DNA of 49,086 nucleotides from an uncultured Bacillota bacterium (GTDB taxonomy: Bacteria > Bacillota > Clostridia > Christensenellales > UBA1242): positions 1-49,086 of the forward strand of contig CAMRTM010000007.1 of NCBI GenBank assembly GCA_947053645.1. Direction: 5' to 3'. Positions 1,612 to 34,756 of the stretch are shown in pieces. The notes below the pieces were generated by a model that worked only from the letters and a program-made list of their open reading frames with translations, was not told where the DNA came from and ran no database searches. Position 1 is the first letter of the stretch. Each line of letters starts with the position of its first letter. The position numbers and the translations under genes are program-made.

Positions 1612-1638
1612 ATTATACTCGGGGGGGGGAATTGTCAA
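1612..1638 (-). promoter_or_regulatory. SigA-type promoter with 9-bp poly-C spacer tract
   Basis: On the minus strand a perfect TTGACA (1633-1638) and a perfect TATAAT (1612-1617) are separated by 15 bp, nine of which are a C homopolymer (G on the plus strand, 1621-1629). The optimum is about 17 bp, so gain or loss of C residues by slippage should change promoter strength. The downstream gene begins at 1590. Confidence 0.8.
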
Positions 1639-1674
1639 GTGTTTTAAGAAAAAAATAATATTTCTTCAAATCAT

Positions 1675-1703
1675 TTGTTTTGAACTTTGAGATGTAATAT
1701 AAT
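1675..1703 (+). promoter_or_regulatory. Possible promoter of hpf
   Basis: TTGTTT (1675-1680) and TATAAT (1698-1703) are separated by 17 bp. The -35 is weak and a stress or stationary-phase factor may be used instead. Confidence 0.35.
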
Positions 1704-1725
1704 AAAACTAAGGGAGGAAAAATAT

Positions 1726-2268
1726 ATGAAAATTGATATCGTAGAAAAAGGTGGCTATAAAGCAAGCCAAAGACTAAAGAAGGTGCTTACAGATAAAATA
1801 AATAAACTCGAAAGATATTTCGGGGATGATGTAAGTGCTAAGGTTGTATGCAGCAAGGAAGATAAGAGGGAAAAACTTGAAATAACTTTAAAGAATAAAG
1901 GTATGCTTTATCGAAGTGAGGTTGCAAGTGCAAACATTTATGATAATATAGACCTTGTGCTTCCAAAACTTGAAAAACAGATAGTTCGTGTGGTTGAAAA
2001 GAAAAAATCAAAAGCAAAATCAAATAGAAAAACAGTAAGGACAATGGAAGTACCATTTGAATTTCTTGCTGAAGAGCCTGAGGTTTTGCCAGAAGTATTT
2101 AAGAAAAAGACTTTCGACCTTGACCCTATGTCAATTGATGAAGCGCGCTATGCAATAGAGCGTGTGGGGCATGATTTCTATATCTTCCTAAATGCAAAAA
2201 CTGGAAGAGTGAATGTAATGTATAAGCGTCATGATAATAAACTTGGCGTTATAGATGTTAAGTTTTAG
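1726..2268 (+). CDS. hpf: Ribosome hibernation promoting factor, long form
   Basis: 180 residues from the ATG at 1726, preceded by GGGAGG. The N-terminal half is the S30AE/RaiA domain, which binds the decoding region of the 30S subunit. It is joined by a Lys-rich linker to the C-terminal domain (from about residue 115: VPFEFLAEEPEVLPEVFKKK, then DEARYAIERVGHDFYIFLNA), which in long HPFs dimerises 70S ribosomes into 100S particles. This two-domain length is typical of Firmicutes. It probably shares a transcript with the small membrane protein that starts 8 bp after its stop. Confidence 0.93.
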   Translation: MKIDIVEKGGYKASQRLKKVLTDKINKLERYFGDDVSAKVVCSKEDKREKLEITLKNKGMLYRSEVASANIYDNIDLVLPKLEKQIVRVVEKKKSKAKSNRKTVRTMEVPFEFLAEEPEVLPEVFKKKTFDLDPMSIDEARYAIERVGHDFYIFLNAKTGRVNVMYKRHDNKLGVIDVKF

Positions 2269-2276
2269 GAGGAATT

Positions 2277-2513
2277 ATGGCAACACAAAAAAGAAAAACA
2301 CTTTCGAACATTATCAGTGAAGCGTTAAGTGGAATTATTATGATAGTTTGTGTTCTAGTATATTTAATTTTAGGTTTCACAATAAATTTTTGGCATCCAG
2401 GCTGGATAATTATTGTTGGTGGTGCGCTTAGCGTAGGCATTTTAAATATAATTTTAAATGCAGTAAATGACGCTAAAAATCTAAAAAAAGAAGAAAAGGA
2501 AAATGAGGAATAA
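2277..2513 (+). CDS. Small membrane protein, two predicted transmembrane segments
   Basis: 78 residues, with AGGAGG overlapping the end of hpf. A short basic N terminus precedes two hydrophobic helices (about 16-36 and 42-61), separated by a short NFWHPGW loop. A charged Lys/Glu-rich tail follows. It is likely a cytoplasmic-membrane protein with both ends inside. No family recognised. It is cotranscribed with hpf by position and ends at a strong terminator. Confidence 0.7.
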   Translation: MATQKRKTLSNIISEALSGIIMIVCVLVYLILGFTINFWHPGWIIIVGGALSVGILNIILNAVNDAKNLKKEEKENEE

Positions 2514-2541
2514 AAAAGACTTGCACCGCCAAGTCTTTTTT
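2512..2541. terminator. Bidirectional terminator
   Basis: A-run, stem AAGACTTG/CAAGTCTT with a six-base loop, T-run. It closes the hpf unit and the convergent minus-strand gene. Confidence 0.85.
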
Positions 2542-3034
2542 ATTCTGCTTCTCCGTCTGCTTTTTTGTGACGCTCCAGTTCACTTTCATATTCCAGTAGG
2601 TGTTCTCTCAGTTCAAGGCTACCTTTTTCCATAACAATTTCTCTATGTGCAGTTTTGTTTGCACCATGAAGATACTTGTATGCTTGCAAACTCCAAACAG
2701 GGGATTTTTCTGCTAAAATTTTTTCATCGTGAAGAGGTACATTTGCACCATATACATCGCGTGCATAATAGTAATTCATCTCTCCGTTTCCTTTTTCCAA
2801 CACAATTTTTTCAAGTTCGTGAAAATTGATGTACTCATGGTCGATATAGATATTTTTGGTCATAGCCTTAGCAAATAGATAGGCAACATCTGGGGCAGTG
2901 GCTTTTGACGAAATAAGTTTTCTTTGTGCCACTTTAATAAGTGATACTTTCGTACTTTTTTGCTTTATACGCTCAAGTTGCTCCATTAGTTTGATAAGGT
3001 CGGCAATTTCAAAATTTTCATTTACTTTTTTCAT
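2540..3034 (-). CDS. Hypothetical protein with YARDVxGA-type repeat
   Basis: 164 residues, with GGAGG upstream of the ATG at 3034. No signal peptide or membrane segment. The middle (about 70-135) contains wording such as EKIVLEKGNGEMNYYYARDV followed by GAN and a second, weaker copy (YKYLHGAN, EIVMEKGS). From memory this resembles an ~37-residue repeat found in long helical proteins of uncultured gut Firmicutes, but I cannot name a domain. Monocistronic, with its own consensus promoter. Function unknown. Confidence 0.65.
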   Translation of the reverse strand: MKKVNENFEIADLIKLMEQLERIKQKSTKVSLIKVAQRKLISSKATAPDVAYLFAKAMTKNIYIDHEYINFHELEKIVLEKGNGEMNYYYARDVYGANVPLHDEKILAEKSPVWSLQAYKYLHGANKTAHREIVMEKGSLELREHLLEYESELERHKKADGEAE

Positions 3035-3057
3035 AAGCTCCCTCCACTTATATAAAA

Positions 3058-3086
3058 ATTATATTATACATTAGTTTAATTGTCAA
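3058..3086 (-). promoter_or_regulatory. Consensus SigA promoter
   Basis: On the minus strand TTGACA (3081-3086) and TATAAT (3058-3063) are 17 bp apart, upstream of the gene starting at 3034. Confidence 0.75.
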
Positions 3087-3102
3087 TGGTCTTTTTTTGG
3101 AA

Positions 3103-3126
3103 TAAAAAAAGTGCACTAATGCACTT
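3103..3126 (-). terminator. Terminator of rpsT
   Basis: The minus strand reads AGTGCA-TTAG-TGCACT followed by seven T, right after the rpsT stop codon. Confidence 0.8.
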
Positions 3127-3397
3127 AGATTGACTTTTTAAGATTGTCAAGCATTTTTGCATAGTGTGCTTTTTTGCGGTTAGCGCTGTTTGCATGAATA
3201 ACATTGTCTCTAGCGGCACTGTCCATTAAAGAAACAACATCGTTGTAAGCAACTTCTGCATTCACAACATCCTTGTTTGCGATAGCAAGTTTAAATTTCT
3301 TAGCATAAGTTGAAATGCGAGATTTGATTGCTTTGTTTTCAGCAGTCTTTTTTTCAATAACTCTAACTCTTTTTTCTGCAGATTTAATATTTGGCAT
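3125..3397 (-). CDS. rpsT: 30S ribosomal protein S20
   Basis: 90 residues. The start MPNIKSAEKRVRV at 3397 is the canonical S20 N terminus and has AAGGAG upstream; the six-residue upstream extension is rejected. Basic and all-helical, it binds 16S rRNA. It is divergent from gpr, the arrangement seen in Bacillus and many Clostridia. Confidence 0.97.
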   Translation of the reverse strand: MPNIKSAEKRVRVIEKKTAENKAIKSRISTYAKKFKLAIANKDVVNAEVAYNDVVSLMDSAARDNVIHANSANRKKAHYAKMLDNLKKSI

Positions 3398-3478
3398 GTT
3401 CTTCTCCTTAATCAAATTCTAGAAAAGTATAGCACAAGAATTGTTAATTTGCAAGCAAAAATAAATAATTTTTGCAAA

Positions 3479-4243
3479 ATGTTTGAAAATATAGGTATGT
3501 TTGATTTGTTTGATGAGTGTGGAAAAGACCTAGAGCGGTATGGCTACTCAGTTAAAGAGATAGAATATGAAGGCGCACTTGGGTATATGAAGATAGAAAG
3601 TGAAGAGAAAAGCCAAGAATTATCACTTAAAAAAGGTGAGTATTTTATAATTAACATTCCATCTTTATATGAAAAAGATTGCGAAGAGTATCTATCTAAA
3701 ATATTATATAACTCCCTTTGTCATTTAATAAATGGATTGGATTTGAAAAAGCATGCGAGGTGTTTAGTAGTAGGGCTAGGCAATCCAAATATTTTGGCAG
3801 ATAGCCTAGGAAAGTCTGTCATAGATAGTATGGCAGACGGCGTTGAAGGAGTATATAAATTCTGCCCCAATATTTATGCAATCACAGGTATTGACACAAG
3901 TGATTTTGTGCTGTATGTTAAGGAAGGCGTAAAAGCGGATTGCGTAATCGTAGTTGATTCACTTGCCACAAATGATATTTCTCGTCTTGGCACATCAGTG
4001 CAACTTACAAGCGCAGGCATAAGCGCAGGTAGTGGTGTCAGAAAAAATCCAAGTAGAATTGATAAAGATAAAATCGGCGTGCCTTGTATAAGCATAGGGG
4101 TGCCGTATATGATTTTTTCAAGTGTGATAAAAAAAGATGTGCCCGAACTTTTACTTACGCCAAAAGACATTCATACAAATATTCAGGTTATGGGAAAGAT
4201 TATTGCCTGTGCCATAGATAAGTTGTTTAAAGGTTTGTTGTGA
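3479..4243 (+). CDS. gpr: GPR germination protease (spore endopeptidase, peptidase family A25)
   Basis: About 254 residues from ATG 3479. A TTG at 3449 or an ATG at 3497 are alternative starts, and none has a clear Shine-Dalgarno. GPR degrades small acid-soluble spore proteins on germination; it is made in the forespore as a zymogen. Family features visible: VVGLGNPNILADSLGKSV, IDTSDFVLYVKEGVKADCVI, VVDSLATNDISRLGTSVQL, GISAGSGVRKNPSRI, and the VPCISIGVPYMI segment. Here it is short at the N terminus, so the propeptide may be reduced. The rpsT neighbourhood supports the call. Confidence 0.93.
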   Translation: MFENIGMFDLFDECGKDLERYGYSVKEIEYEGALGYMKIESEEKSQELSLKKGEYFIINIPSLYEKDCEEYLSKILYNSLCHLINGLDLKKHARCLVVGLGNPNILADSLGKSVIDSMADGVEGVYKFCPNIYAITGIDTSDFVLYVKEGVKADCVIVVDSLATNDISRLGTSVQLTSAGISAGSGVRKNPSRIDKDKIGVPCISIGVPYMIFSSVIKKDVPELLLTPKDIHTNIQVMGKIIACAIDKLFKGLL

Positions 4244-4369
4244 TTCACTTTCACACTTGTCATTTAGATAAAATTTAAGGAGTAAATAAGTTTCCATCTT
4301 AATGTCTTATTTACTTATAAATAGCGTAAAAATATTCTTAATTTGTTTTGTAAAAAATAAGATATGATA

Positions 4370-4375
4370 TATACT
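4370..4375 (+). promoter_or_regulatory. Possible -10 box close to the start of the surface protein
   Basis: TATACT lies 9 nt before the ATG at 4385 and no Shine-Dalgarno is visible, so the transcript may be almost leaderless. TTGTTT at 4343-4348 would be a distant -35 (21 bp). Confidence 0.3.
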
Positions 4376-4384
4376 ATATCTATC

Positions 4385-7270
4385 ATGAAAAAAATAAATA
4401 GATTCACTTTATTATTTATATGTACATTTGTTCTCCTTATAGGGGGACTTCTTTTGACTAGCACTGCTGCGGGGGGGGGAGTTTTAGATTTTGATAATTC
4501 TCAAGAAGAAACAACAACCCCGCCGGGTGAAGATAATACAGATGCTGGCATGTCTGGTACTTTTTATGGATATACAATGCTTAGAGATCCAGATTCTGGA
4601 GCAATCAAAGTTAATCATTGGGGGTCTAACTATGGCATAGCACTAATTCCTTGGTCTAGTAGTGTAAACATGGATAGTATACCATCTTCTTTTCATACAA
4701 GTTCTAGCAGTTATTCAACAAGCGTTTCTTTGCAAAATAATACTGCACGAATATGGGCAAGAATGCCTTCAAAGGCGGGTTATAGTTATTATGGAATTGC
4801 AATAGGGTATATAAATAATTACAACTCATCAATATCTACAAGAACATTTTATGATTCTAGTTTCATTGGTTACATAGTCAATAATACAATAAGTACAAAT
4901 TACCATTATTCTGGTAGTAACGAATGGTTGGGAGATATACCTGGTGGCTGGGACGCCATTGCTGTAATGCAAACAAACAAGTATAATATAAGTTATTCTA
5001 ATCTACAAGGTGCAACATGTTCGGGGCCAACAAGTGCAACATATGATAAATCAGTTTATATACCAAATCCTTCAACAAGGACGGGTTATACCTTTGCGGG
5101 TTGGACATTTAATGGAAGTACCAGTTATGCAAAATATGGTACTTCATCATCATCGGTAACAACTTCGTGGACAAGCACCTCTACAAAAGTAACATCAACA
5201 TATTTTAAAAATCTTATAACAACAAACAATGGTACAGTAACGATGAAAGCCAACTGGACAGCAAATAAATATACAGTCACCTTAAATAGCAATAAGGGAA
5301 GTGGTTCCTCAACTCCTACTGGTGGGACTTCCAGCGTAAGCGCCACTTACAATAGTGCAATGCCATCTGCCACCATGCCAACACGCGATGGATATACATT
5401 CGAAGGTTATTATGACACCAGTGCGTCAACAGGCGGAACACAGTACTATACCTCGACTGGTGCAAGTGCTCGGGTGTGGAATAAAACAAGTAATGAAACA
5501 CTTTATGCTCGCTGGACGCCTATCACATATACTTTAACTTATAATTTGAATGGTGGCAGTTATGGGACTTATCATCCTGCTAGTGCGACTTATGATAGTG
5601 TTGTTCAAATATCAAATCCAACCAAAACAGGATATACATTTGCTGGGTGGAGTGTTCCAAATGGGACAGCGCTTGACTTATCAACTGCAAAATATGGCAA
5701 TTCATCATCGTCAGTAAACACTTCGTGGACAAGCCTTTCCACAAAACCAACTGCGATTTATTATAAAAACCTTGCTTCAACAAGTGGTGGAGATGTATTT
5801 TTTCAAGCCCAGTGGCGGGATGCTGCTGCCCCAGTAATACACCGGAAAACATGGGTACAAAACGGGTCAACAGGATACTATGTATATGCATATGTCACAG
5901 ATAATGTTGGGGTGGCAAGAGTGCAATTCCCTACATGGACGGATAAGAATGGGCAGGACGATATACAGGCAAATTGGGGTACCAATTCAGCAGCCAGTGG
6001 AACAAGTGGAAACTGGACAATAAATAATCAGACATATAACTATAGATACACAGTAAATGTAACAGAACATAATAATGAATATGGAATATATAATACACAC
6101 ATATATGCATATGACGCTGCTGGTAATTCAGTAAGTACAGCGATAGGTGGAATAAGATTTAACTTCACAGTGACATTAAATTCAAACGGTGGCAGTGGCG
6201 GCAGCACAAGTATTATAGCAACATATGATGCTGCAATGCCAAATCTTACATCACTGCCAACCCGTGAAGGCTGGAAATTCCTAGGCTACTATGACGCTCA
6301 AACTGGCGGTAATCAATATTATCGCGAAGATGGCAGATGGGCATGGATTTGGGATAAAACGCAAAATGCAACCCTTTTCGCTCATTGGCAAGAAAAAACA
6401 TGGATAGAAGATAGTAGTTACTATTCTACATCACTGAGCGGGCTGGGAACGGAAACAAATCCATATAAAATCACTTCAGCAAAAGACCTTGCCTATCTTG
6501 CAAAACAATCTCAGACAAATAATTTCAGTGGAAAATATTTTAGGCAGACTTCAAATATAGATTTATCTGCACATTTATGGACTAGTATTTCAGATGTCAA
6601 CGATTATATTAATTCTTTTGCGGGCATATATGACGGAGGACTATACTCAGTTAGAAATTTAAGAATGAATGGTGTAGCAAGTGGACATTACGGATTATTC
6701 TATTATACAAAGAATGCAATGATAAAAAATATAAATTTGCAAGATGTAGAAATACAGGGTGAAAAAAGTGCCTCAATAGGTGGAATTGTAAGTGTACCCG
6801 AAACTACTACTATAGAAAATTGTGTAGTTACAACAGCAAAAATAACTGGTCGTAACCAAATAGGCGGAATAGTAGGTGTGGCTTTTGATAGTACAATATC
6901 TCAATGTATGGTAAAAGATTGTACAATAACAGGTCAGCAATATGTAGGGGGAATATTAGGAGATAGTTTTACAACCAGCATAACAGATTGTAATGTAATG
7001 GATGTTACCATCATATGCGATTCAGGCAGTATCATATGTGATTCTGCCTCAGTGCAAGGGGATGTAACAATCAATTCATCTTACGGCTCAGGAACAGTCA
7101 ATGGTACTGCTACAAAGGTCATGTATGGCGACGCAACCGCATGGGGCAACTGGTCACTTGTAGAGGGCGTGAACGGAGGACTTCCAGTGCAAAAAGGACT
7201 ATACCATATCGGTGGTTTTACAGACTCTAAGAAAGTATATGATCATTTAGTTGCTTGGAAAAATAGTTAA
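4385..7270 (+). CDS. Large secreted surface protein: InlB-type repeats, Bsp-like domain, GLUG repeats; G9 tract in frame
   Basis: 961 residues from ATG 4385 (MKKINRF, followed by a signal peptide to about residue 28, TSTAA). Codons 29-32 contain nine consecutive G (4471-4479). Three or more Flg_new/InlB B-type repeats follow (for example TGYTFAGW, YTLTYNLNGGSYG, DGYTFEGYYD). Next is a domain like the GBS Bsp module (DNVGVARVQFPTW, DDIQANW, HNNEYGIYNTHIYAYD), then another B repeat. The C terminus has GLUG-type beta-helix repeats (GRNQIGGIVGVAF, GQQYVGGILGDSF). No LPXTG sorting signal and no C-terminal membrane anchor. It is probably an extracellular adhesin-like protein. Ser/Thr/Asn/Gly-rich. 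The lack of a Shine-Dalgarno is odd. Confidence 0.85.
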   Translation: MKKINRFTLLFICTFVLLIGGLLLTSTAAGGGVLDFDNSQEETTTPPGEDNTDAGMSGTFYGYTMLRDPDSGAIKVNHWGSNYGIALIPWSSSVNMDSIPSSFHTSSSSYSTSVSLQNNTARIWARMPSKAGYSYYGIAIGYINNYNSSISTRTFYDSSFIGYIVNNTISTNYHYSGSNEWLGDIPGGWDAIAVMQTNKYNISYSNLQGATCSGPTSATYDKSVYIPNPSTRTGYTFAGWTFNGSTSYAKYGTSSSSVTTSWTSTSTKVTSTYFKNLITTNNGTVTMKANWTANKYTVTLNSNKGSGSSTPTGGTSSVSATYNSAMPSATMPTRDGYTFEGYYDTSASTGGTQYYTSTGASARVWNKTSNETLYARWTPITYTLTYNLNGGSYGTYHPASATYDSVVQISNPTKTGYTFAGWSVPNGTALDLSTAKYGNSSSSVNTSWTSLSTKPTAIYYKNLASTSGGDVFFQAQWRDAAAPVIHRKTWVQNGSTGYYVYAYVTDNVGVARVQFPTWTDKNGQDDIQANWGTNSAASGTSGNWTINNQTYNYRYTVNVTEHNNEYGIYNTHIYAYDAAGNSVSTAIGGIRFNFTVTLNSNGGSGGSTSIIATYDAAMPNLTSLPTREGWKFLGYYDAQTGGNQYYREDGRWAWIWDKTQNATLFAHWQEKTWIEDSSYYSTSLSGLGTETNPYKITSAKDLAYLAKQSQTNNFSGKYFRQTSNIDLSAHLWTSISDVNDYINSFAGIYDGGLYSVRNLRMNGVASGHYGLFYYTKNAMIKNINLQDVEIQGEKSASIGGIVSVPETTTIENCVVTTAKITGRNQIGGIVGVAFDSTISQCMVKDCTITGQQYVGGILGDSFTTSITDCNVMDVTIICDSGSIICDSASVQGDVTINSSYGSGTVNGTATKVMYGDATAWGNWSLVEGVNGGLPVQKGLYHIGGFTDSKKVYDHLVAWKNS
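4471..4479 (+). repeat. Nine-G homopolymer inside the surface-protein ORF
   Basis: The tract covers the third base of codon 29 to the second base of codon 32. With ten G the next codons lead to TGA, and with eight G to TAG, both within about six codons. A single-base slip would therefore switch the protein off. Confidence 0.85.
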
Positions 7271-7287
7271 AAAATTGTCTAAGACGC

Positions 7288-7314
7288 AAAAAAGTGGCTT
7301 GTGCCACTTTTTTT
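7288..7314 (+). terminator. Terminator of the surface protein gene
   Basis: A-run, stem AAGTGGC/GCCACTT with a TTGT loop, then a T-run. It lies in front of the ytfI-like gene. Confidence 0.8.
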
Positions 7315-7348
7315 GTATATAAAATCTTATTTTACAAACACTTTTTCT

Positions 7349-7909
7349 ATGAATACACTTTACTATCTAATTCCCACATTTATAATACTTTTGTGTATTT
7401 TCCCGCTTATAATTCAATTGCGGGTTACTTTTAATTTAGAAAGTCTAAACGGGGTAATATGCTTGTACCTTTTTAAAATCAAAATTAAATATTACTCATA
7501 CGAATTAAAGGGTAAATATATTGTTTTAAGCAATGAGAGGCAAACAAAGCATAAGGAAATAGAGTTTGACCCAAGACAGTTTATAATAGTAAAGATTTTC
7601 AAAGACCAATTAAAACATAAATCACGGGTTAAAGAGATGTTTGTGTTTTATAATATCGGTCTAGGTGATGCGTTTCTTACTTCCATGGTTTGTGGTGCGA
7701 TAAATAATGCTCTGTTAATATATTTTACAAATGTAAAAAATCGACGACCAACTGCTTCTATGGGAATATACGATACGGTGTCCTATAACCGCCAAGTATT
7801 CGAGGTGGCTGGCAAAGGCAGTATAAGTATTTCTTTGTTTGATGTTGTATATTCTTTGGTGATGTCGGTTATTCTAATTAAGAGATTAAGTAAAGGGAGT
7901 AAGGTATGA
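7349..7909 (+). CDS. DUF2953 (YtfI-like) sporulation-associated membrane protein
   Basis: 186 residues from ATG 7349 (MNTLYYLIP). The ORF can be opened to 7301, but that start lies inside the upstream terminator. One N-terminal transmembrane helix (about 3-22), then a beta-rich region, and a second hydrophobic segment near the C terminus. It overlaps gerW by an ATGA junction, which matches the ytfI-ytfJ pair of Bacillus and gives the DUF2953 assignment; the sequence itself is divergent. No clear Shine-Dalgarno. Confidence 0.7.
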   Translation: MNTLYYLIPTFIILLCIFPLIIQLRVTFNLESLNGVICLYLFKIKIKYYSYELKGKYIVLSNERQTKHKEIEFDPRQFIIVKIFKDQLKHKSRVKEMFVFYNIGLGDAFLTSMVCGAINNALLIYFTNVKNRRPTASMGIYDTVSYNRQVFEVAGKGSISISLFDVVYSLVMSVILIKRLSKGSKV

Positions 7910-8295
7910 AAATATATACAGAAAATGAAACAATAAAAGATTTAATAGATGGTGCTATGGAGAAGATGAAAGGGATTATGGGTTCCAGCACTGTAATAGG
8001 TGAACGAGTGGAAACACCTGACGGAACAATAATAATACCTGTGTCCAAAGTAACAGTAGGATATGTCGTAGGCGGAGGTGAATATGCCGACCTGTCTTCA
8101 AGAAGGGTGGCAAATCATTTCCCTATGGCTGGAGGTTCAAGCGGTGGTGTAAGCGTGTTGCCAGTGGGTTTTTTGGTAGAAAGTAAGGGAGAAATTAGTT
8201 TTATCAATGTAGAGAATAAATCGCTTTATCAAACTATTCTAAACACCTTCAATGCACTAATAAACAAACTGGAGAAGGAAGATGAAAAAGACTAA
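7906..8295 (+). CDS. gerW: GerW family sporulation protein (YtfJ)
   Basis: 129 residues, start overlapping the upstream stop, with GGGAGT before it. Family wording: GTIIIPVSKVTVGYVVGGGE and the Gly/Ser-rich GGSSGGVSVLPVGFLV. YtfJ homologues are made in the forespore and contribute to germination. It overlaps the downstream carboxypeptidase by 14 bp, so translation is probably coupled. Confidence 0.93.
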   Translation: MKIYTENETIKDLIDGAMEKMKGIMGSSTVIGERVETPDGTIIIPVSKVTVGYVVGGGEYADLSSRRVANHFPMAGGSSGGVSVLPVGFLVESKGEISFINVENKSLYQTILNTFNALINKLEKEDEKD

Positions 8296-9436: not shown

Positions 9437-9445
9437 GTGTAATGA

Positions 9446-12220: not shown

Positions 12221-12227
12221 AGTTGTG

Positions 12228-12512
12228 ATTTCAACCGATCAATCCTTTCTATCATCCCAACAGTCCAAGCCTCGTCTGTCATCTCGACCGTAGCGGAGGG
12301 ATCTTTCACCACCACTGCCATTTCGACCATTCGGTGTCCCCAAACAATGCTTTAGCATTTTAGGGGTGAAGTAGCGGAGAAATCTAAAGTAACATACACC
12401 ACCACAAGAAACCGCCTAATGCGGTGTCATTGCGAACAATGCGGAGAAATCTCTTTGCTATCAACCTTGTCATTTCGACCGTAGCCCAATGGGACAGAGT
12501 GGAGAAATCTAT
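12228..12512. repeat. REP-like repeat array (locus 3)
   Basis: This 325-bp stretch between plsC and the next gene holds only repeats: several ATTTCGACC-type and ATCTCGACC-type units and 3' halves ending GGAGAAATCT or GGAGGGATCT. It includes a complete hairpin form (12470-12512) and the spacer module ACATACACCACCACAAGAAA with the GCCTAATGC hairpin, which recurs at 14160 and 34580. Confidence 0.85.
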
Positions 12513-12515
12513 ATG

Positions 12516-12548
12516 AAAAAAGCACAACTTAATGTTGTGCTTTTTTTA
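12516..12548. terminator. Bidirectional terminator
   Basis: A-run, stem AAGCACAAC/GTTGTGCTT, T-run. Confidence 0.8.
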
Positions 12549-12899: not shown

Positions 12900-12923
12900 A
12901 TTTAATCTCCTTTTGATAAAAGG

Positions 12924-14088: not shown

Positions 14089-14229
14089 ATTCTTGTCATT
14101 TCGACCATTCTCACTTCTGTCATTTCGACCGTAGCCCGATAGGGCGGAGCGGAGAAATCTAAAGCAACATACACCACCACAAGAAACCGCCTAAGGTGGT
14201 GTCATTTCGACCGTAGCGGAGAAATTTAA
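14089..14229. repeat. REP-like repeat array (locus 4)
   Basis: Units include a full hairpin copy (14119-14160, GCCCGATAGGGC apex) and the recurring spacer module with ACACCACC...GGTGGTGT arms (14168-14203). Confidence 0.85.
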
Positions 14230-24233: not shown

Positions 24234-24242
24234 GGAGGGAAT

Positions 24243-25367: not shown

Positions 25368-25406
25368 CAATATATTGTGGCTATTTTGTATGCATACTAC
25401 TGTTAT
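25368..25406. repeat. 3'-end element, CAATATAT...TATGCATACTA form
   Basis: Begins right after the stop of the AlgJ-like gene and runs into the 3' end of the convergent glycosylase gene, supplying its last codons. Nearly the same sequence follows obg at 47832. Confidence 0.6.
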
Positions 25407-25884: not shown

Positions 25885-25973
25885 ACTCTTCCTTTTATTT
25901 GTATTTTCAATAAATTTTGATATAATATTTTAAAGTTTAGATAAGCTAATTGTCAAATAAAAAGAGGGGGAAA

Positions 25974-26633: not shown

Positions 26634-26655
26634 TAAACGGCGCAATCGTAAAAAT

Positions 26656-26686
26656 AAAAACCCTTATTAGATGAGGGCTTTTTTAT
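26656..26686. terminator. Terminator between cmk and the SDR gene
   Basis: CCCTtAT/ATgAGGG hairpin with A-run before and T-run after; convergent genes. Confidence 0.65.
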
Positions 26687-26688
26687 TG

Positions 26689-27426: not shown

Positions 27427-27486
27427 ATTTTTCTCCTAATTAATATTTTAACATATAAAGCTAAATTTTCCTAATATCTTTTTATT

Positions 27487-27512
27487 AAAAAAAACAGGGT
27501 AGACCTGTTTTA
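27487..27512 (-). terminator. Terminator of degV
   Basis: Minus strand AAAACAGG-TCTAC-CCTGTTTT plus T-run. Confidence 0.75.
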
Positions 27513-27514
27513 GT

Positions 27515-28333: not shown

Positions 28334-28504
28334 TATAACTCCTTAATAAATTTTATCATATCAATATAAGGAAAGTCTAACGAAATGTTACGCAAAACTG
28401 ACGAAAGTTTGTCGTAAGATGGCAGTAATATATAATAGCAAAAAAGAAAAAATAATATTACAATAAAATATAGTAAAATTTTTTAGAAAATTTAGCAAAA
28501 TTCC

Positions 28505-28533
28505 TTGACATAATTTGTATTTTATTATAAAAT
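28505..28533 (+). promoter_or_regulatory. Promoter of the tRNA cluster
   Basis: TTGACA (28505-28510), 17 bp, TAAAAT (28528-28533), 22 bp before the first tRNA. The rest of the 220-bp gap from degV holds nothing recognisable. Confidence 0.7.
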
Positions 28534-28554
28534 TACAACGCAAGCATTATTAAT

Positions 28555-28630
28555 CGGGGTGTAGCGCAGTTGGTAGCGCGCGTGGTTTGGGACCATGAGG
28601 TCGGGAGTTCGAGGCTCTCCACCCCGACCA
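28555..28630 (+). tRNA. tRNA-Pro (TGG)
   Basis: Acceptor CGGGGTG/CACCCCG, CCA encoded; anticodon stem CGTGG/CCATG, loop TTTGGGA, anticodon TGG at 28588-28590. Confidence 0.95.
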
Positions 28631-28663
28631 TGACTTGCAAAAGTCAAAAGTCTTATGCTCAAT

Positions 28664-28740
28664 GGGCCTCTAGCTCAGTTGGTTAGAGCAACCGGCTCAT
28701 AACCGGTCGGTCCGGGGTTCGAGTCCCTGGAGGCCCACCA
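28664..28740 (+). tRNA. tRNA with CAT anticodon, probably tRNA-Ile2 (lysidine type), else tRNA-Met
   Basis: Acceptor GGGCCTC/GAGGCCC, CCA encoded; anticodon CAT at 28698-28700. The D-arm and CGGCTCATAACCG wording match Firmicute tRNA-Ile(CAT), whose C34 is changed to lysidine, better than elongator Met. Confidence 0.85.
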
Positions 28741-28783
28741 AAGTTTTCTAGAAAACTTTAAAAGCATAAGTGCCACAATATGT

Positions 28784-28860
28784 GGCTCGGTAGTTCAGTT
28801 GGTTAGAACGCCAGCCTGTCACGCTGGAGGTCGTGGGTTCGAGCCCCATTCGAGTCGCCA
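28784..28860 (+). tRNA. tRNA-Asp (GTC)
   Basis: Acceptor GGCTCGG pairs with TCGAGTC through two G-T wobbles; G discriminator; CCA encoded. Anticodon GTC at 28818-28820. Confidence 0.95.
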
Positions 28861-28916
28861 TATGAAAAAATTCTTGCTGTTTTTCATGGAAATCAGCCCC
28901 CTGTTCTCGCTTTAAA

Positions 28917-29044
28917 GTTGCGACAAATCGCTAACGAAACGAAGGGGAGTGCGATTTCGTTTGGTCGCAAAAAGCGGAAATTTGCGACCTGACCGTAAAA
29001 ATTTACAACTGTAAATTTTGAAGTTTCAAAGCAAGATTTCCGTT
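28917..29044 (+). ncRNA. Structured element A upstream of tRNA-Phe
   Basis: Stems: TTGCGAC (28918-28924)/GTCGCAA (28964-28970) enclosing AACGAAA/TTTCGTT; AGCGGAAAT (28973-28981) with ATTTCCGTT (29036-29044); internal hairpin AAAATTTAC/GTAAATTTT (28998-29019). A second copy at 29221 keeps the folding with different bases. It may be a conserved tRNA leader or spacer RNA. Confidence 0.55.
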
Positions 29045-29048
29045 CCAT

Positions 29049-29124
29049 GCCCTGATAGCTCAGTCGGTAGAGCAAAGGACTGAAAATCCTTGTGTCGGTG
29101 GTTCGATTCCACCTTAGGGCACCA
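29049..29124 (+). tRNA. tRNA-Phe (GAA)
   Basis: Acceptor GCCCTGA/TTAGGGC; CCA encoded; anticodon stem AAGGA/TCCTT, anticodon GAA at 29082-29084. Confidence 0.95.
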
Positions 29125-29220
29125 AAGTGCATGAGGTGGGCAGAACCACTAAATCTCTTGAAAAAGAGGGTTCTCACCTTATGGTACTTATAACACTTAA
29201 AATCTTCTTCCTTTTGAAAA

Positions 29221-29350
29221 GTTGCGACAAATCGCCAACGAAACAAAATGGAGTGAGATTTCGTTTGGTCGCAAAAAGCGAAAACTTGCGTCCAAATCGT
29301 AGGGATTTATGCCAGTAAATCCCGAGAGTGTAAAGAAAGATTTTCGCTTT
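29221..29350 (+). ncRNA. Structured element B upstream of tRNA-Thr(TGT)
   Basis: Same layout as element A: TTGCGAC/GTCGCAA, AACGAAA/TTTCGTT, outer stem AAAGCGAAAA (29275-29284)/TTTTCGCTTT (29341-29350) abutting the tRNA, and hairpin GGGATTTA/TAAATCCC (29302-29323). Confidence 0.55.
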
Positions 29351-29425
29351 GCTGGTGTGGCTCAATGGTAGAGCAGCTGACTTGTAATCAGCAGGTTGAA
29401 GGTTCGATTCCTTTCACCAGCTCCA
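29351..29425 (+). tRNA. tRNA-Thr (TGT)
   Basis: Acceptor GCTGGTG/CACCAGC; CCA encoded; anticodon stem GCTGA/TCAGC, anticodon TGT at 29383-29385. Confidence 0.95.
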
Positions 29426-29437
29426 TTTTTTTAATAT

Positions 29438-29522
29438 GGGTAGGTTGCAGAGCGGCCAAATGCAACGGACTGTAAATCCGTCGGTTCTACCTTCGATGGT
29501 TCGAATCCATCCCTGCCCACCA
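29438..29522 (+). tRNA. tRNA-Tyr (GTA)
   Basis: 85 nt with a long variable arm. Acceptor GGGTAGG/CCTGCCC; CCA encoded; anticodon GTA at 29472-29474. Confidence 0.93.
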
Positions 29523-29527
29523 AAAAT

Positions 29528-29593
29528 AAAGCACAACCAAAGGTTGTGCTTTTTTTAGTATTTAACGCGGGTCTTTATTGACCCGCGTTTTTT
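29528..29593 (+). terminator. Twin terminators ending the tRNA cluster
   Basis: First hairpin AAAGCACAACC/GGTTGTGCTTT with T-run (29528-29557). The second, stronger, AACGCGGGTC/GACCCGCGTT with T-run (29564-29593), insulates the spoIIA operon. Confidence 0.9.
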
Positions 29594-29681
29594 CTTGTTG
29601 GTTAGTGTTTTTTCGCAGAAGAAGGAAAATATTTGCAAATTTAGATGTGTTAGGATTAAGTAGTTGAAGGAGGGCGGAGGT

Positions 29682-29990
29682 ATGCATATAAAAAGTAAGG
29701 TGTATAACAACACTTTGTATGTCATATTGTGTGGCGAACTTGACGAACATTCCGCGACGCATACAAGAATGACGCTTGATGAGGCATTTTCTGGCAGAGG
29801 GTTTGGACAGGTAATTATAGACTTATCAGAACTGGAGTTTATGGATAGTACTGGAATAGGTGTATTGATAGGAAGATATAAGAAGATGAAAAGTAAAAAT
29901 ATACCAATTTATATCGCGAATCCATCTACTCATGCGGAAAAGATATTCAAAATGACGGGCTTGTATGAAATCATGCCTAAGATAGTTTAG
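29682..29990 (+). CDS. spoIIAA: Anti-sigma F factor antagonist SpoIIAA
   Basis: 102 residues from ATG 29682 with AAGGAGGG upstream. STAS domain with FMDSTGIGVLIGRYK, in which Ser56 is the expected phosphorylation site. Dephosphorylated SpoIIAA frees SigF from SpoIIAB in the forespore. First gene of spoIIA. AGGAAAAT at 29623 resembles a SigH -35, but no convincing -10 is visible. Confidence 0.95.
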   Translation: MHIKSKVYNNTLYVILCGELDEHSATHTRMTLDEAFSGRGFGQVIIDLSELEFMDSTGIGVLIGRYKKMKSKNIPIYIANPSTHAEKIFKMTGLYEIMPKIV

Positions 29991-29998
29991 GAGGTAAT

Positions 29999-30448
29999 AT
30001 GAAAACAAATAATTTTATGGAAGTAGTATTCAAGGCGGAATCGGTAAACGAAGGCTTTGCAAGAGTATGCGTGGCTTCCTTTTGTGTGCAATTAAACCCA
30101 TCGATAGATGAACTGACAGATATTAAAACTGCAGTATCGGAAGCGGTTACAAATGCGGTTGTTCATGCTTACCCAAGGGGGAATGGAATAGTAAAACTTA
30201 GATGTGAATTAATCGGTGGAAGCGTCAGGATTGAAGTGAGCGATGAAGGGGTAGGGATAAAAGATATAGAAAAAGCTCGCGAGCCATTTTTCACGACTAA
30301 GCCTACCGAGGAGCGAAGTGGAATGGGCTTTGCAGTAATGGAAAGTTTTATGGATAAAGTGGAGGTGGAAAAGAATGGATTAAAAGGCACTAAAGTAATA
30401 ATGCAAAAGCAGTTAAATGCTAATGCAAGGGTAGTGGTAGGTGAGTAA
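29999..30448 (+). CDS. spoIIAB: Anti-sigma F factor and kinase SpoIIAB
   Basis: 149 residues, AGGAGG upstream. GHKL ATPase: N box EAVTNAVVHAY (48-58), G1 DEGVGI (82-87), G2 GMGFAVM (108-114). It binds and inhibits SigF and phosphorylates SpoIIAA. Its stop TAA overlaps the sigF ATG. Confidence 0.95.
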   Translation: MKTNNFMEVVFKAESVNEGFARVCVASFCVQLNPSIDELTDIKTAVSEAVTNAVVHAYPRGNGIVKLRCELIGGSVRIEVSDEGVGIKDIEKAREPFFTTKPTEERSGMGFAVMESFMDKVEVEKNGLKGTKVIMQKQLNANARVVVGE

Positions 30449-31170
30449 TGTTAGATCCTGCTAAAACCTTAGAGTATGTCGCACTTGCTCAAGAGGGCAA
30501 TCAGGAGGCCAAAACCATATTAATAGAGGAAAATTCTCCTCTAATAAAAAGTGTTATTAAGCGCTTTCGAGATAAGGGGATAGAATATGATGATCTTTAT
30601 CAGCTTGGCTGCATTGGCTTTTTGAAGGCGATAAAAAATTTTAAGCCCGAGTTTGATGTTAAATTTTCCACCTATGTAGTGCCAATGGTAATAGGTGAGA
30701 TAAAAAGATTTATGAGAGATGATGGAGCGGTAAAAGTGTCAAGAGCGTTAAAGTCATTGAATTTACAAATAAATAGATATATTGAAAAATACATGGGCGA
30801 AAAACAGGAAAAGCCTACAATAGAACAGCTTGCCAAACATTTCAAGGTAGATGAGCAGGAGATAGTAATGGCGATGGATTCAGCAAAAATGCCGGTGTCA
30901 CTGTATGCTCCGCTAGAGGAAGAAGGAGGGAATTTAAATGTCATCGATAGGGTGGAGATGGAGCAAAGTACAGGTTTTGATATGCTAGAAAATATTGCGT
31001 TGAAGGAAATAATCAAACACCTTGATGAGCGTGATAGGAAGATAATTTTGCTTCGTTATTACTTTGATAAGACCCAAAGCGAAATAGCAAATGAACTTCA
31101 TATTTCCCAAGTTCAAGTATCTCGCCTTGAAAATAAGATATTGGACTCATTGCGTGCAAAAATGATATAA
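30448..31170 (+). CDS. sigF: RNA polymerase sporulation sigma factor SigF
   Basis: 240 residues. Region 2 DDLYQLGCIGFLKAIKNF and FSTYVVPMVIGEIKRFMRDD; region 3 with QEKPTIEQLAKHF; region 4 LDERDRKIILLRYY...HISQVQVSRLENKIL. First forespore-specific sigma factor. Immediately downstream is a dispersed 3'-end element and then a terminator. Confidence 0.96.
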   Translation: MLDPAKTLEYVALAQEGNQEAKTILIEENSPLIKSVIKRFRDKGIEYDDLYQLGCIGFLKAIKNFKPEFDVKFSTYVVPMVIGEIKRFMRDDGAVKVSRALKSLNLQINRYIEKYMGEKQEKPTIEQLAKHFKVDEQEIVMAMDSAKMPVSLYAPLEEEGGNLNVIDRVEMEQSTGFDMLENIALKEIIKHLDERDRKIILLRYYFDKTQSEIANELHISQVQVSRLENKILDSLRAKMI

Positions 31171-31175
31171 TGTGT

Positions 31176-31216
31176 CATGTATGCACATACAACATACTAC
31201 ATATTGTGTATTATAA
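31176..31216. repeat. 3'-end element after sigF
   Basis: Begins 6 nt after the sigF stop: CATGTATGCACATACAACAT followed by ACTACATATTGTG. Shares the TACTACATATTGTG core with the copy after spoVAE. Confidence 0.55.
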
Positions 31217-31242
31217 AAAAGAGAGTACTTTTACTCTCTTTT
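31216..31242. terminator. Bidirectional terminator
   Basis: AAAAGAGAGTA/TACTCTCTTTT hairpin between sigF and the convergent WG-like gene. Confidence 0.85.
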
Positions 31243-31245
31243 CAT

Positions 31246-32580
31246 CTAATTTTCGTCAATATTTTCTGGTGTTGAATCTAATTGTGAAAGCAATGCCATA
31301 ATTTTGTTTAACTCTTCTTTTCGTTTTGCGGCTTTTTCTTTTTTACTATCTGCTCTAGATTTAGACTTGTTTTTTAACTCTTCTTTGCTATTTGCTTTAG
31401 GTTTAGGATCATTATTTAAATCTTTTTCCTCTTTAGGATTATACATAGCGTTCAAACAAGACATTTTTTCTTTGTTAAGTTTCTTTTTAGAAGGTTTCTT
31501 CGAAGAGTTATTTTCTTCTTTAATTTTATCTTGGATGTCGCGAAGGGTGATTAAAGTTTTTGTCAATGCGTTAATTGCATTATCAGTTCTAGTGAGAGAG
31601 TTAGTATTTTGAGATTTGATATATCCGACCATCTCTTTGAAATATCGTGTCTGTGCAAATTGTGAAAGTTTACCAACATTTTCAGTATTTTGTGCGTAAG
31701 CCGCCATAACACTGATTGCATCTTTAGATTTGAATTTTGCAGTTAAGGCTTTATCTTCTATTGCTTGTGCAAGATCTTTAGCCTCTACATCTACAAGGTC
31801 GTTAATGTCAATTAATGTCCAGCCCTTCTTTAGTTTAATTGGAAGCATATCGTCATTTGATAAAATTCCTACTTCTGGAAGGAGATGTGACATCTGTACT
31901 GCCTTGCCAGTGTGAAGGTTAAAAAATCTTGTTGTAATATTGTTACCATTTTTTTCTTGAGATGTAACCCATCCTTGATCGTTAATTGCGATTGCGGGAC
32001 CATAAGAAAGTGGCTTTTTGTCTTTATCAGTACATAATGATTCTTCATTTATGTCATAAACATAAATAGTGTTTAGGTTTTTATCGCTTACAAGAACCAA
32101 GCCTTCTAGACTTATTTTGTTTTGTGGTGCGAATTTAAAATTTCCAGATGTTTCACCAGTTTTTACATTTATAAAGCCAAAGCCTGCTCTTCCTGTAAGA
32201 TCTACAACCGCCCAGCCGTTTTGGTTTGCTTCATGTACACATGAAATTTCATAACGGCAATCTTCTACATATTTGTCCTCTTTATTTCTTTTCACGAGAT
32301 TGTAAGTGATTTCTGTTCCAGTTTTTAAATTGATAAGAGTCTGTTTACCATCATTGCGTGTTGCATAGGTAAAAGAAGCATCTTCTGCAAATTCACTAAT
32401 ATCTGTAAATTCTGTAGCGAAAGTCCCTTTAACTACATTGAATAATGCGAAAGACTTATTCTTCAACTCGACTCTTGCCCAACCTTGCTTGTTGGCTCTT
32501 ATTTCATTGATTGGTGTTTTTACTTTACTTTTGATAATCTTATCAATTGCCTCACCAAAAGTAGTAATTGTTTCTGTCAT
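31246..32580 (-). CDS. WG-repeat-like cytoplasmic protein with Lys-rich coiled-coil tail
   Basis: 444 residues, AGGAGG before the ATG at 32580. The N-terminal ~270 residues have KWG-style phrases at intervals (NKQGWARVELKNKSFALFNV, NGWAVVDLTGRAGFGFINVK, NDQGWVTS, KKGWTLIDI), suggesting a divergent WG-repeat propeller. The rest is helical and ends in ~100 residues of Lys/Glu/Ser. No signal peptide. Isolated gene with a poly-G-spacer promoter. Function unknown. Confidence 0.7.
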   Translation of the reverse strand: MTETITTFGEAIDKIIKSKVKTPINEIRANKQGWARVELKNKSFALFNVVKGTFATEFTDISEFAEDASFTYATRNDGKQTLINLKTGTEITYNLVKRNKEDKYVEDCRYEISCVHEANQNGWAVVDLTGRAGFGFINVKTGETSGNFKFAPQNKISLEGLVLVSDKNLNTIYVYDINEESLCTDKDKKPLSYGPAIAINDQGWVTSQEKNGNNITTRFFNLHTGKAVQMSHLLPEVGILSNDDMLPIKLKKGWTLIDINDLVDVEAKDLAQAIEDKALTAKFKSKDAISVMAAYAQNTENVGKLSQFAQTRYFKEMVGYIKSQNTNSLTRTDNAINALTKTLITLRDIQDKIKEENNSSKKPSKKKLNKEKMSCLNAMYNPKEEKDLNNDPKPKANSKEELKNKSKSRADSKKEKAAKRKEELNKIMALLSQLDSTPENIDEN

Positions 32581-32621
32581 TTTCCCCTCCTAAATTTGCA
32601 TTTTCCTTAATGCTTAGCCCT

Positions 32622-32648
32622 ATTATACTCGGGGGGGGGATTTGTCAA
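32622..32648 (-). promoter_or_regulatory. SigA-type promoter with 9-bp poly-C spacer tract
   Basis: Minus strand TTGACA (32643-32648), 15 bp with nine C (32631-32639), TATAAT (32622-32627). Over 27 bp it matches the promoter at 1612-1638 except for one base. Confidence 0.8.
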
Positions 32649-32688
32649 GTCCTTTTTTGAAAAAAGTTGAAAAATTTTTAGAAAATGT

Positions 32689-32714
32689 AAAAATGCCCAC
32701 TTCGGGCATTTTTT
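32689..32714 (-). terminator. Terminator of the NGY-repeat lipoprotein gene
   Basis: AAAAATGCCC/CGGGCATTTTTT hairpin at the 3' end of the gene. Confidence 0.75.
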
Positions 32715-33936
32715 AACCTTTAATTAATTTTTCAATTTTCTTGTTTGTTTTTAAGTGGTCGACCACAAGATTTGTGCTTCTGGCAGTCACTTTTTTTGGA
32801 AGTTGTTTTACCATGTGATATTCTTTATTTTCCTCTGCTTTAGGTAAGGTTTTAACTTCATTATTAATTACTTTGTTCTCTTCTTCTGCTTTATGCTCTA
32901 TTACCGTCTTTCTTGACTCCTCATTAGTTTCTTCCACGGCACCGCTATTTACTGGCACGGTACAATTCCCATTAGGGCAATATCCATTGTTGTAACCGTT
33001 GTATCCATAGCCGTTATAAGACCTGTATGTGTCTATATTTCTTACTCTTGGCTGATAGGTGTCAGTATTTCTATTAGGATTAAAAATACCTCTATTGTAT
33101 CCGTAGCCATTGTAACCATAGTTGTAGCCATTCATATAACCATTATTGTAATTGTATCCATTGTTGTAATTGACATTTTGTTGTGGCGTGTTTATGGTAT
33201 TGTTTATAGTATTACCTCTGTATGTGTCGATATTTTTTTTGTTTTCTTTTTGTTCTGATTTTACCTCTTGTTGTTGCGTACCTTGATAGTTGTCGTTATA
33301 GGTGTTGTCTTGTTTGTTAGAAAGAAGACTTCTTCCCTGTAATGTGTTTTCCACTTGATTCATTGTATTTAAAAGGTTTCTGAAATAGCATAATCTTGCG
33401 TCCATGTGATTATTAAGGCTTTGATAATGGGCGCTGATTTGGTCTGCATTAAATGTATTAGGAGAATTAAATCTCTTAATCATTTTGATTGAACTGTTAA
33501 TATCAGTTTTAGTATTGTTAAGGCTTGCTGTATACTTACTTATATTGTTTACAAGTCCATTTAATGCGCTTACCTGATTTCTAGAAAGTTTTAAGTCTTT
33601 TGTGAGAGAACTTTTAATCATTGCCGCTTGTGTCAAGATGTTTTGTTTAAGGTACTCTTGCTCATCAGCGCTGTTTTGAAGTTTGTACACTTGTGAGCCA
33701 AGAGGAGTGTTGTAATTAGTGGACGATATCGGCAATGTTCGATAACCATTATTGTTTGTAATGTATGCGTTAGGGGTAAGAGAAGTGAATTGACTGGTAG
33801 AAAGACTTGATACAGTGTTTGTTACTCTGTTAAGTTGACCAGATAAATTTTTAATTGTTGAACTTTGACCACTTCCACAACCAACACAGGTAATGGCAAG
33901 AAGTCCACATAGAGATCCGATTAATATTTTTTTCAT
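32713..33936 (-). CDS. Lipoprotein with Asn-Gly-Tyr repeats, likely spore-associated
   Basis: 407 residues, GGAGG before the ATG at 33936. Signal peptide with lipobox TCVGC (Cys20). A helical region (~85-205) is followed by a low-complexity Asn/Gly/Tyr stretch (YNNGYNYNNGYMNGYNYG) with the repeated phrase NIDTYR, then a charged tail. No family recognised. It is divergent from spoVAC, and a SigG-like promoter lies upstream, so it may be a forespore membrane lipoprotein. Confidence 0.75.
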   Translation of the reverse strand: MKKILIGSLCGLLAITCVGCGSGQSSTIKNLSGQLNRVTNTVSSLSTSQFTSLTPNAYITNNNGYRTLPISSTNYNTPLGSQVYKLQNSADEQEYLKQNILTQAAMIKSSLTKDLKLSRNQVSALNGLVNNISKYTASLNNTKTDINSSIKMIKRFNSPNTFNADQISAHYQSLNNHMDARLCYFRNLLNTMNQVENTLQGRSLLSNKQDNTYNDNYQGTQQQEVKSEQKENKKNIDTYRGNTINNTINTPQQNVNYNNGYNYNNGYMNGYNYGYNGYGYNRGIFNPNRNTDTYQPRVRNIDTYRSYNGYGYNGYNNGYCPNGNCTVPVNSGAVEETNEESRKTVIEHKAEEENKVINNEVKTLPKAEENKEYHMVKQLPKKVTARSTNLVVDHLKTNKKIEKLIKG

Positions 33937-33958
33937 ATAAATTCCTCCGTTTCATTGT

Positions 33959-33987
33959 TAGTTTGCGTAGTAGTTAAAAAAATATAC
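33959..33987 (-). promoter_or_regulatory. SigG-like forespore promoter of the lipoprotein
   Basis: Minus strand GTATA (33983-33987), 17 bp, CAAACTA (33959-33965), close to the SigG pattern GHATR-N17/18-CATWMTA. The overlapping plus-strand TATACTA may serve spoVAC. Confidence 0.4.
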
Positions 33988-34037
33988 TAATGTTTAGAAA
34001 TGTAAAAAATGGCAATAAAAGGGTAGGAGAAATTTTA

Positions 34038-34484
34038 ATGGATGAAAAGAAACGCAATGAAGCCTATAATAAGTATGTAAAAGCCAAGATACCTAAAACT
34101 AGACCGTGGCCAAGTTTATTTAATTCATTTTGGATAGGGGGACTTATCTGTTGCTTAGGTCAGGGAATAAATGACCTAATACTTTTATGGTTTCCAAATA
34201 TGGCAGAGCAGACTGCATGGGCGTATACGCTTATCGTGCTTATCTTTTTAGCCTCCTTCCTAACTGGTATCGGAGTATACGATAGAATAGGTAAGTTTGC
34301 AGGCGGTGGAACGATTGTCCCTATTACAGGCTTTTCAAATTCAATTACAAGCCCAGCGTTAGAATTTAAGCATGAGGGGATTATCTATGGACTTTGTGTA
34401 AAAATGTTTACAATCGCAGGCCCAGTTATTGTAGTTGGCATAGTTTCCAGTATACTTGTCGGGCTAGTATATTTGTTTATATAG
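34038..34484 (+). CDS. spoVAC: Stage V sporulation protein SpoVAC
   Basis: 148 residues from ATG 34038 with AGGAGA upstream. Four hydrophobic segments; family wording SFWIGGLICCLGQGINDL, GIGVYDRIGKFAGGGTIVPI, TGFSNSITSPALEFKHEGII. SpoVA proteins form the inner-membrane channel for dipicolinic acid in spores. In other species it is directly followed by spoVAD; here about 1.3 kb intervenes. Confidence 0.95.
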   Translation: MDEKKRNEAYNKYVKAKIPKTRPWPSLFNSFWIGGLICCLGQGINDLILLWFPNMAEQTAWAYTLIVLIFLASFLTGIGVYDRIGKFAGGGTIVPITGFSNSITSPALEFKHEGIIYGLCVKMFTIAGPVIVVGIVSSILVGLVYLFI

Positions 34485-34496
34485 GTTGCAATCTTG

Positions 34497-34700
34497 TTAT
34501 ACCGACTGTAGCCCATTCTCCCATGTCATTTCGACTGTAGCCCATTCTCCCATGTCATTTCGACCGTAGTGGAGAAATCTAAAGCAACACACGCCACTGC
34601 AAGAAGCCGCCTAAGGCGGTGTCATTTCGACCGAAGTTCCTTTTTTTCCCATCTTGTCATTTCGACCGAAGCCCGTAAGGGCGGAGTGGAGAAATCTAGT
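34497..34700. repeat. REP-like repeat array (locus 5)
   Basis: Several ATTTCGACC units, including a tandem pair 34497-34570 (unit ending CCCATTCTCCCATG). Also the spacer module with GCCGCCTAAGGCGG and a complete hairpin copy 34655-34697 (GCCCGTAAGGGC apex). Confidence 0.85.
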
Positions 34701-34728
34701 GAAAAAACAAAAAAATATTAAATTTTAC

Positions 34729-34756
34729 TTGACAATTCCCCCCCCCGCTTTATAAT
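34729..34756 (+). promoter_or_regulatory. SigA-type promoter with 9-bp poly-C spacer tract
   Basis: TTGACA (34729-34734), 16 bp containing nine C (34738-34746), TATAAT (34751-34756). Third promoter of this design; the only one on the plus strand. Confidence 0.8.

Follow-up and report, generated by a model that had tools for sequence, protein, structure and literature searches.

Nine-base runs in the window

The stretch of DNA analysed here, 49,086 nucleotides in full and referred to as the window, makes up contig C7 of an uncultured Clostridia genome that comprises 874,327 bases in 19 contigs and is rated 95.4% complete. It carries four homopolymers of nine C or G, which a preliminary description had proposed to form a phase-variation network, at 1621–1629, 4471–4479 and 32631–32639 (G9 as read on the plus strand) and at 34738–34746 (C9). 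The runs stand apart from the rest of the sequence: the next longest run of C or G in the window has five bases, in keeping with that description, which had noted the absence of other long runs, and on a first-order estimate a sequence of this composition should have about 0.06 runs of at least nine bases in 49 kb, against the four seen.

Three of the runs lie within promoters whose perfect TTGACA and TATAAT boxes and spacers of 15, 15 and 16 bp we could confirm. Promoter P1 (1612..1638, minus strand) has the layout TTGACA-ATT-C9-GAG-TATAAT, with the C9 at 1621–1629 and a spacer of 15 bp, and precedes the gene of a 170-aa protein (1078..1590, minus strand); P2 (32622..32648, minus strand), TTGACA-AAT-C9-GAG-TATAAT, likewise has a 15-bp spacer, with the C9 at 32631–32639, and precedes the gene of a 444-aa protein (31246..32580, minus strand). 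Neither protein has a Pfam family at E 0.01. The counterpart of the P1 gene in the species G070 (L299, 90.6% identical) also has a C9 and a 15-bp spacer, and a counterpart of the P2 gene (L151, 49.8% identical) again lies downstream of a 15-bp promoter with C9. With up to three mismatches allowed, the 15-bp promoter pattern has two matches in the window and none in 100 shuffles. The third promoter, P3 (34729..34756, plus strand), reads TTGACA-ATT-C9-GCTT-TATAAT, with the C9 at 34738–34746 and a 16-bp spacer, and is followed by the gene of a 311-aa lipoprotein-like protein with Big_3 domains (34776..35711, plus strand). Because a terminator-like hairpin (35732..35755, plus strand; such sites number 2 across the window, against 1.2 expected in shuffles) precedes the next gene, that of SpoVAD (35760–36812), P3 probably drives the lipoprotein gene alone, and co-transcription of the spore gene from it is unlikely.

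The fourth run, G9 at 4471..4479 on the plus strand, is located in the open reading frame (ORF) of a surface protein (4385..7270, plus strand; 961 aa from the ATG at 4385 or 968 from 4364) that contains List_Bact_rpt (Flg_new) repeats and a GBS Bsp-like repeat. The run comes directly after a signal-peptide-like N-terminus, and the frame stays open through it in this assembly, which agrees with the earlier claim.

Run-bearing promoters in the genome and beyond

Across the whole genome, we found 22 runs of C or G of at least seven bases (one of seven, four of eight and seventeen of nine, with none longer), 14 of them in promoter spacers and 8 within ORFs or where an ORF starts; scaling up the window estimate, about one run of nine or more bases was expected, and 17 were seen. 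In all 13 C-type promoters, the run stands between TTGACA and a −10-like box, with a ribosome-site-like stretch and then an ORF further on. The −10 box is TATAAT in eleven and weaker in two; at L050, TATAAT lies at 25 bp but TATACT at 19 bp. The fourteenth promoter has a G9 between TTGACT and TATACT, upstream of the gene of a 753-aa protein, and one perfect 15-bp promoter (C6:8431) contains the interrupted run CCCTCCCCC. A lack of further promoters of this kind in the genome had been named in the preliminary description as an outcome that would speak against its proposal; in addition to the three in the window, we found eight more with perfect boxes and three with a weaker box. Of the first genes behind the 13 C-type promoters, 7 match no Pfam family at E 0.01, and the matches of another 4 all fall below the curated cut-off.

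Beyond this genome, C-run promoters with perfect hexamers occur in 36 of 91 genomes of the genus (our own included) and in 3 of the 60 genomes taken from elsewhere in the order, one of the three being chance-like, and the reversed control was empty in all 151 genomes. Of 112 genus genomes, 14 have promoters with the run in G orientation, at 34 places altogether and again with nothing in the reversed control, and a draw of 240 genomes of the class from outside the genus gave two matches, both with six C. A scan of named species genomes, the counts of which are lower bounds, returned many "uncultured Clostridia bacterium" assemblies and 10 of Mucispirillum among the matches listed. One of the listed records agrees with contig C50 of G070 in the positions of its two matches, which places the genus among these assemblies, and judging from their titles, it is probably an inhabitant of the animal gut.

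Mucispirillum belongs to another phylum. Seven genomes under this name, which were chosen for a match in that scan and are thus uninformative on how many lack the layout, hold 26 run promoters; the spacer measures 15 bp in 21 of these and the run is C9 in 23, and the reversed control produced a single match among them, in G178. A repeated layout there is TTGACATT-C9-ATGATATAAT with a spacer of 15 bp (L101, L111, L114, L123, L129 and other loci), and at several loci it precedes proteins that, on our own reading, have signal-peptide- or lipoprotein-like starts. Three genomes of Helicobacter, Treponema and Gastranaerophilales gave 6 matches, with spacers of 15 to 21 bp.

Counts of this kind could in principle arise if the runs were neutral or artefacts of assembly, with G/C homopolymers favoured at nine bases, and the promoter matches were due to chance. 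Our genome and the relatives examined are mostly multi-contig assemblies, and 8 of the 128 listed run promoters start less than 300 bp from the first base of a contig; however, the 17 long runs where about one was expected, the reversed control that was empty in all 151 genomes, the ribosome-site-like stretch and ORF behind every one of the 13 C-type promoters, and the lack of such promoters in 238 of the 240 genomes drawn from the class beyond the genus make this explanation highly improbable. The eight promoters near contig starts (G061:C1:139, G070:C54:12, G074:C2:226, G074:C48:149, G057:C76:45, G025:C74:191, G022:C67:159 and G065:C66:274) perhaps owe their position to repeats or to a mixture of lengths in the sample.

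The spacers that contain a run largely avoid 17–18 bp. In our genome, the perfect promoters without a run peak at 17 (21 cases) and 18 bp (7 cases), making 28 of the 39 within 13–21 bp, whereas none of the 10 perfect promoters with a run has either length (Fisher p 4e-5). Of the 125 promoters with a run counted over the genus, 12 have a spacer of 17–18 bp, and the modes lie at 15–16 and 19–20 bp. In the comparison of genus loci the fractions are 12 of 122 with a run, two of these promoters not being of the genus, and 7 of 11 without one (p 9e-5); G122, with its chance-like match of six C, was dropped from the spacer statistics, and G109 and G110, from other families of the order, were additionally dropped from those on the 125 promoters. 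The length of the flanks minus the run has modes at 6–7 and 10 bp, and these cannot be produced by miscounting of homopolymers. When run lengths were shuffled among the genus promoters, a mean of 25.9 fell at 17–18 bp and 12 or fewer never did in 20,000 trials, a frequency that is no true probability, as the promoters within one species are related.

Spacers of 15–16 and 19–20 bp generally make for weak sigma-70 promoters. From this, and from the run-less promoters of our own genome, we infer that promoters in these states are weak here as well. Because the run-bearing spacers avoid 17–18 bp, the pattern suggests weak promoters at the usual run length and strong ones in rarer variants. Long-spacer activation of the MerR type was considered and set aside, most spacers being 15–16 bp.

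Run length, reading frames and proposed slippage

For the comparison of genus loci, we used 85 run promoters, 73 of them with a first gene. Related promoters form 14 clusters among them, and in seven of these the run length differs between species. A promoter of our genome with C7 and a 13-bp spacer corresponds to one with C9 and 15 bp in G070, the flanks being identical and the proteins 64% identical; the genes of two lipoproteins with 93.4% identity lie behind C9/16 bp in G041 and C10/17 bp in G037, and for a further pair, from G035 and G036, C10/17 bp goes with C9/16 bp at 84%. Two of the differing clusters reach 17 bp through one C. Runs of 9 and 10 bases in near-identical promoter flanks are also found within one genome (G047; G074).

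The eight ORF runs of our genome are all G on the coding strand, and four are in frame, three out of frame and one ambiguous. Besides the surface protein of the window, the in-frame cases are a lipoprotein-like protein with DUF5722 (L054), in which the run encodes GGG straight after the lipobox cysteine, a protein with a PemK-like domain (L053) and a phage baseplate-like ORF (L045), whose G8 may be a chance run. Out of frame are the G8 of a surface protein (L051) that shares its repeats with the window surface protein and has a similar end, the G9 of a T4SS-pilin-like gene (L047; Pfam score just below the curated cut-off) and the G8 of an AMP-binding enzyme (L054), where the run comes after 163 codons and not at the 5′ end. 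In the ambiguous case, a UvrD/HelD-like gene (L049), the run may belong to the leader or ribosome site rather than to the frame.

Homologues of two of the out-of-frame genes could be compared. The pilin-like gene of G070 (L214) has a G9 run and is out of frame there too, and its counterpart in G165, 84% identical, reads from the start without a run according to our reading of its DNA. At G000:C4:51617-52968 (L213), there are three consecutive pilin-like matches, the first out of frame at a G9 and the third with internal stops. The AMP-binding enzyme has 16 homologues in other species of the genus, 54–59% identical and with uninterrupted frames; 13 of them have no run of six or more bases, and the others have an in-frame G9 at about the place of our run (L249, in G084), an in-frame G8 elsewhere (L255) and a G6 (L253). 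A small survey of ORF runs at other genus loci gave 5 matches, 3 out of frame and 2 in frame, two of the five being genes of our own genome. In homopolymer contingency genes of the ORF type, the runs are often 5′ poly-G tracts in surface genes; here, the runs lie mostly near the 5′ end and both frame states occur, and such a mixture of in-frame and out-of-frame states is what one would expect of contingency genes.

We consider slipped-strand phase variation, with promoter spacing and reading frame as its outputs, to be the best account of these loci, at a probability of roughly 0.84. The preliminary description had arrived at the same reading, and it gains support from the frame states, the C and G orientations, the differences in run length and the avoidance of 17–18 bp, all of which fit slippage. 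The loci would be simple-sequence contingency loci, in which the polymerase slips on a nine-base run of C or G and gains or loses one base. In the promoter class, where the −35 and −10 boxes are consensus ones and the run makes up some of the spacer that separates them, the usual nine bases would give a spacer of mostly 15–16 (or 19–20) bp and presumably a weak promoter; one or two slips would bring the spacer to its optimum and raise transcription, and reverse slips would lower it again. In the ORF class, with the run mostly near the 5′ end, slips would change the reading frame. Independent variation of around 20 genes, many of which encode lipoproteins, membrane proteins or secreted proteins, would create a mixed population. 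Envelope-type genes are also enriched behind the run promoters of the genus, by the crude rule given below, and such an enrichment is a mark of contingency loci. Slippage within the population and a benefit in the host are inferred. With less assurance, we also lean towards a wider scenario in which a small-genome Clostridia genus, probably of the gut and equipped with sporulation genes, practises genome-wide bet-hedging through consensus promoters detuned by runs, slips turning the genes up, and in which the same design has arisen independently in Mucispirillum.

A nine-base C run between promoter boxes could also be an operator, that is, a fixed site for a regulator, kept at its length for binding and not slipping at all. 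The dominance of nine (62 of 93 C runs, two rows being from outside the genus, and the 23 of 26 in Mucispirillum) would suit such a site, as would the several counterparts across species that retain both C9 and the same spacer. The use of both strands, with promoters in G as well as C orientation, makes a C-specific operator unlikely, and an operator of any kind fits poorly with summed flanks that range from 5 to 16 bp, with the same run inside ORFs both in and out of frame, with lengths that differ among related promoters and with the recurrence of the layout in another phylum; we regard it as quite improbable. Alternatively, the run might tune promoter strength slowly between species, without any switching inside the host. 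Such tuning would agree with the intact MutS and MutL genes described below, with most C runs having nine bases and with length differences seen so far between species, but the out-of-frame ORF runs, two of which have intact homologues elsewhere, point to reversible on/off states, and runs of 9 and 10 bases coexist in G047 and in G074; it is an unlikely explanation, though one to be reckoned with.

Slippage as the explanation also has observations weighing against it. One class of phase-variable genomes, of the Campylobacter and Helicobacter style, is marked by deficient mismatch repair and the lack of MutS and MutL. The present genome falls outside this class, having matches to both MutS1 and MutL above cut-off and without internal stops; loss of mismatch repair is thereby ruled out as the cause and, because MutS and MutL are present, slippage would have to proceed without help from it. 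The perfect-hexamer C form is missing from 55 of the 91 genus genomes. In 7 of the 14 clusters of related promoters, that of the P1 gene included, the run length does not differ, and together with the prevalence of nine noted above this is a constancy that might be tighter than a fast switch would give. As to spacing, 12 of the 125 genus promoters sit at 17–18 bp, and those at 16 bp may still be active; the run-less set contains chance matches (63 places overall, against 8 in the reversed control), the relatedness of promoters within a species means that the p values overstate independence, and with one vote per genome and spacer the dip becomes shallower (15: 13, 16: 22, 17: 8, 18: 4, 19: 8, 20: 10). 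Finally, the excess of envelope-type first genes (lipoprotein, membrane or secreted; 42 of 73 in the genus, compared with 22 of 88 background genes in our genome, p 4e-5) depends on a crude hydrophobicity and lipobox rule and on unlike sets, genus genes of at least 45 aa being compared with own-genome genes of at least 100 aa and a stricter ribosome site.

Known systems and neighbouring features

Two parallels had been drawn at the outset, of which that to the Neisseria porA and opc promoters is the closer match, with the run between −35 and −10, and that to the Bordetella fim promoters is less close, as the layout differs. In Neisseria meningitidis, porA, fetA and opc have a homopolymer between −10 and −35 that is thought to alter sigma-factor binding (PMC2791445). 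The position of the run is the same here; that source names three genes, whereas a single genome of this Clostridia genus has 14 such promoters, and the spacers of 125 genus promoters avoid 17–18 bp. The marks of the promoter-spacer class of repeats, namely a homopolymer between the boxes, an above-chance frequency and a run length that varies between related promoters, are all present, and our best reading, by analogy, would be a genome-wide slippage network in a small-genome Clostridia genus, of the kind seen in Neisseria porA and opc. Promoters of the Bordetella fim type are not known to have a normal −35. In the cited account of fim2, fim3 and fimX, the critical distance is that from the activator-binding region to the −10 box, and a one-base change in the fimX promoter (C7/C8) alters the transcript 3.8-fold (PMC1891110). 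A C run in the promoter is common to both, but the three window promoters have a consensus −35, which sets them apart from this type; no activator site was sought.

G/C runs within genes, with on/off switching by slippage, are described for Campylobacter, Helicobacter and the pili of Bifidobacterium breve (PMC8355987, PMC2823697, PMC9187656). Runs within genes occur here too; in contrast to those ORF systems, promoter and ORF runs are combined in one genome, with promoters making up 14 of 22, and mutS and mutL are present. For Clostridioides difficile, phase variation by inversion is named in a review from 2025 (PMC11868660); the invertible promoters of this species are likewise a case of phase variation in a spore-former, but the means is site-specific inversion there and, as proposed, slippage here. 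A survey of ORF homopolymers from 2010 took in Clostridia genomes (PMC2831843). The preliminary description knew of no such case in spore-forming Clostridia. Among the papers listed from the open-licence part of PubMed Central, subscription papers and preprints being outside this scope, none described slippage promoters for Clostridia or, as judged by title in the search on phase variation there, for Mucispirillum. Most known cases of slippage-type phase variation come from mucosal Gram-negatives and mycoplasmas. If our account is true, it would extend to an uncultured genus of Clostridia, and the signature of consensus boxes, a nine-base G/C run and a spacer off 17–18 bp would predict phase-variable promoters in metagenomes.

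Some further features of the window deserve a record. Between P2 and P3, at 32713–33936, lies the gene of a 407-aa lipoprotein-like protein that matches no Pfam family at E 0.01 and has 16% Asn. A repeat dispersed over the window, GTCATTTCGACCG(A/T)AG and its variants, occupies 14 places when up to one mismatch is allowed, all on the plus strand and including 943–1024, 12278–12484, 14119–14216, 34525–34671 and 42092–42167, and is found nowhere in 100 shuffles; a stretch similar to it is also present upstream of the run promoter in L055. Small as it is, the 874-kb genome carries sporulation genes, those in the window being for SpoVAD (35760–36812) and, at 3449–4243 and 29999–30448, for a germination protease and a HATPase that, on our reading, may be SpoIIAB.

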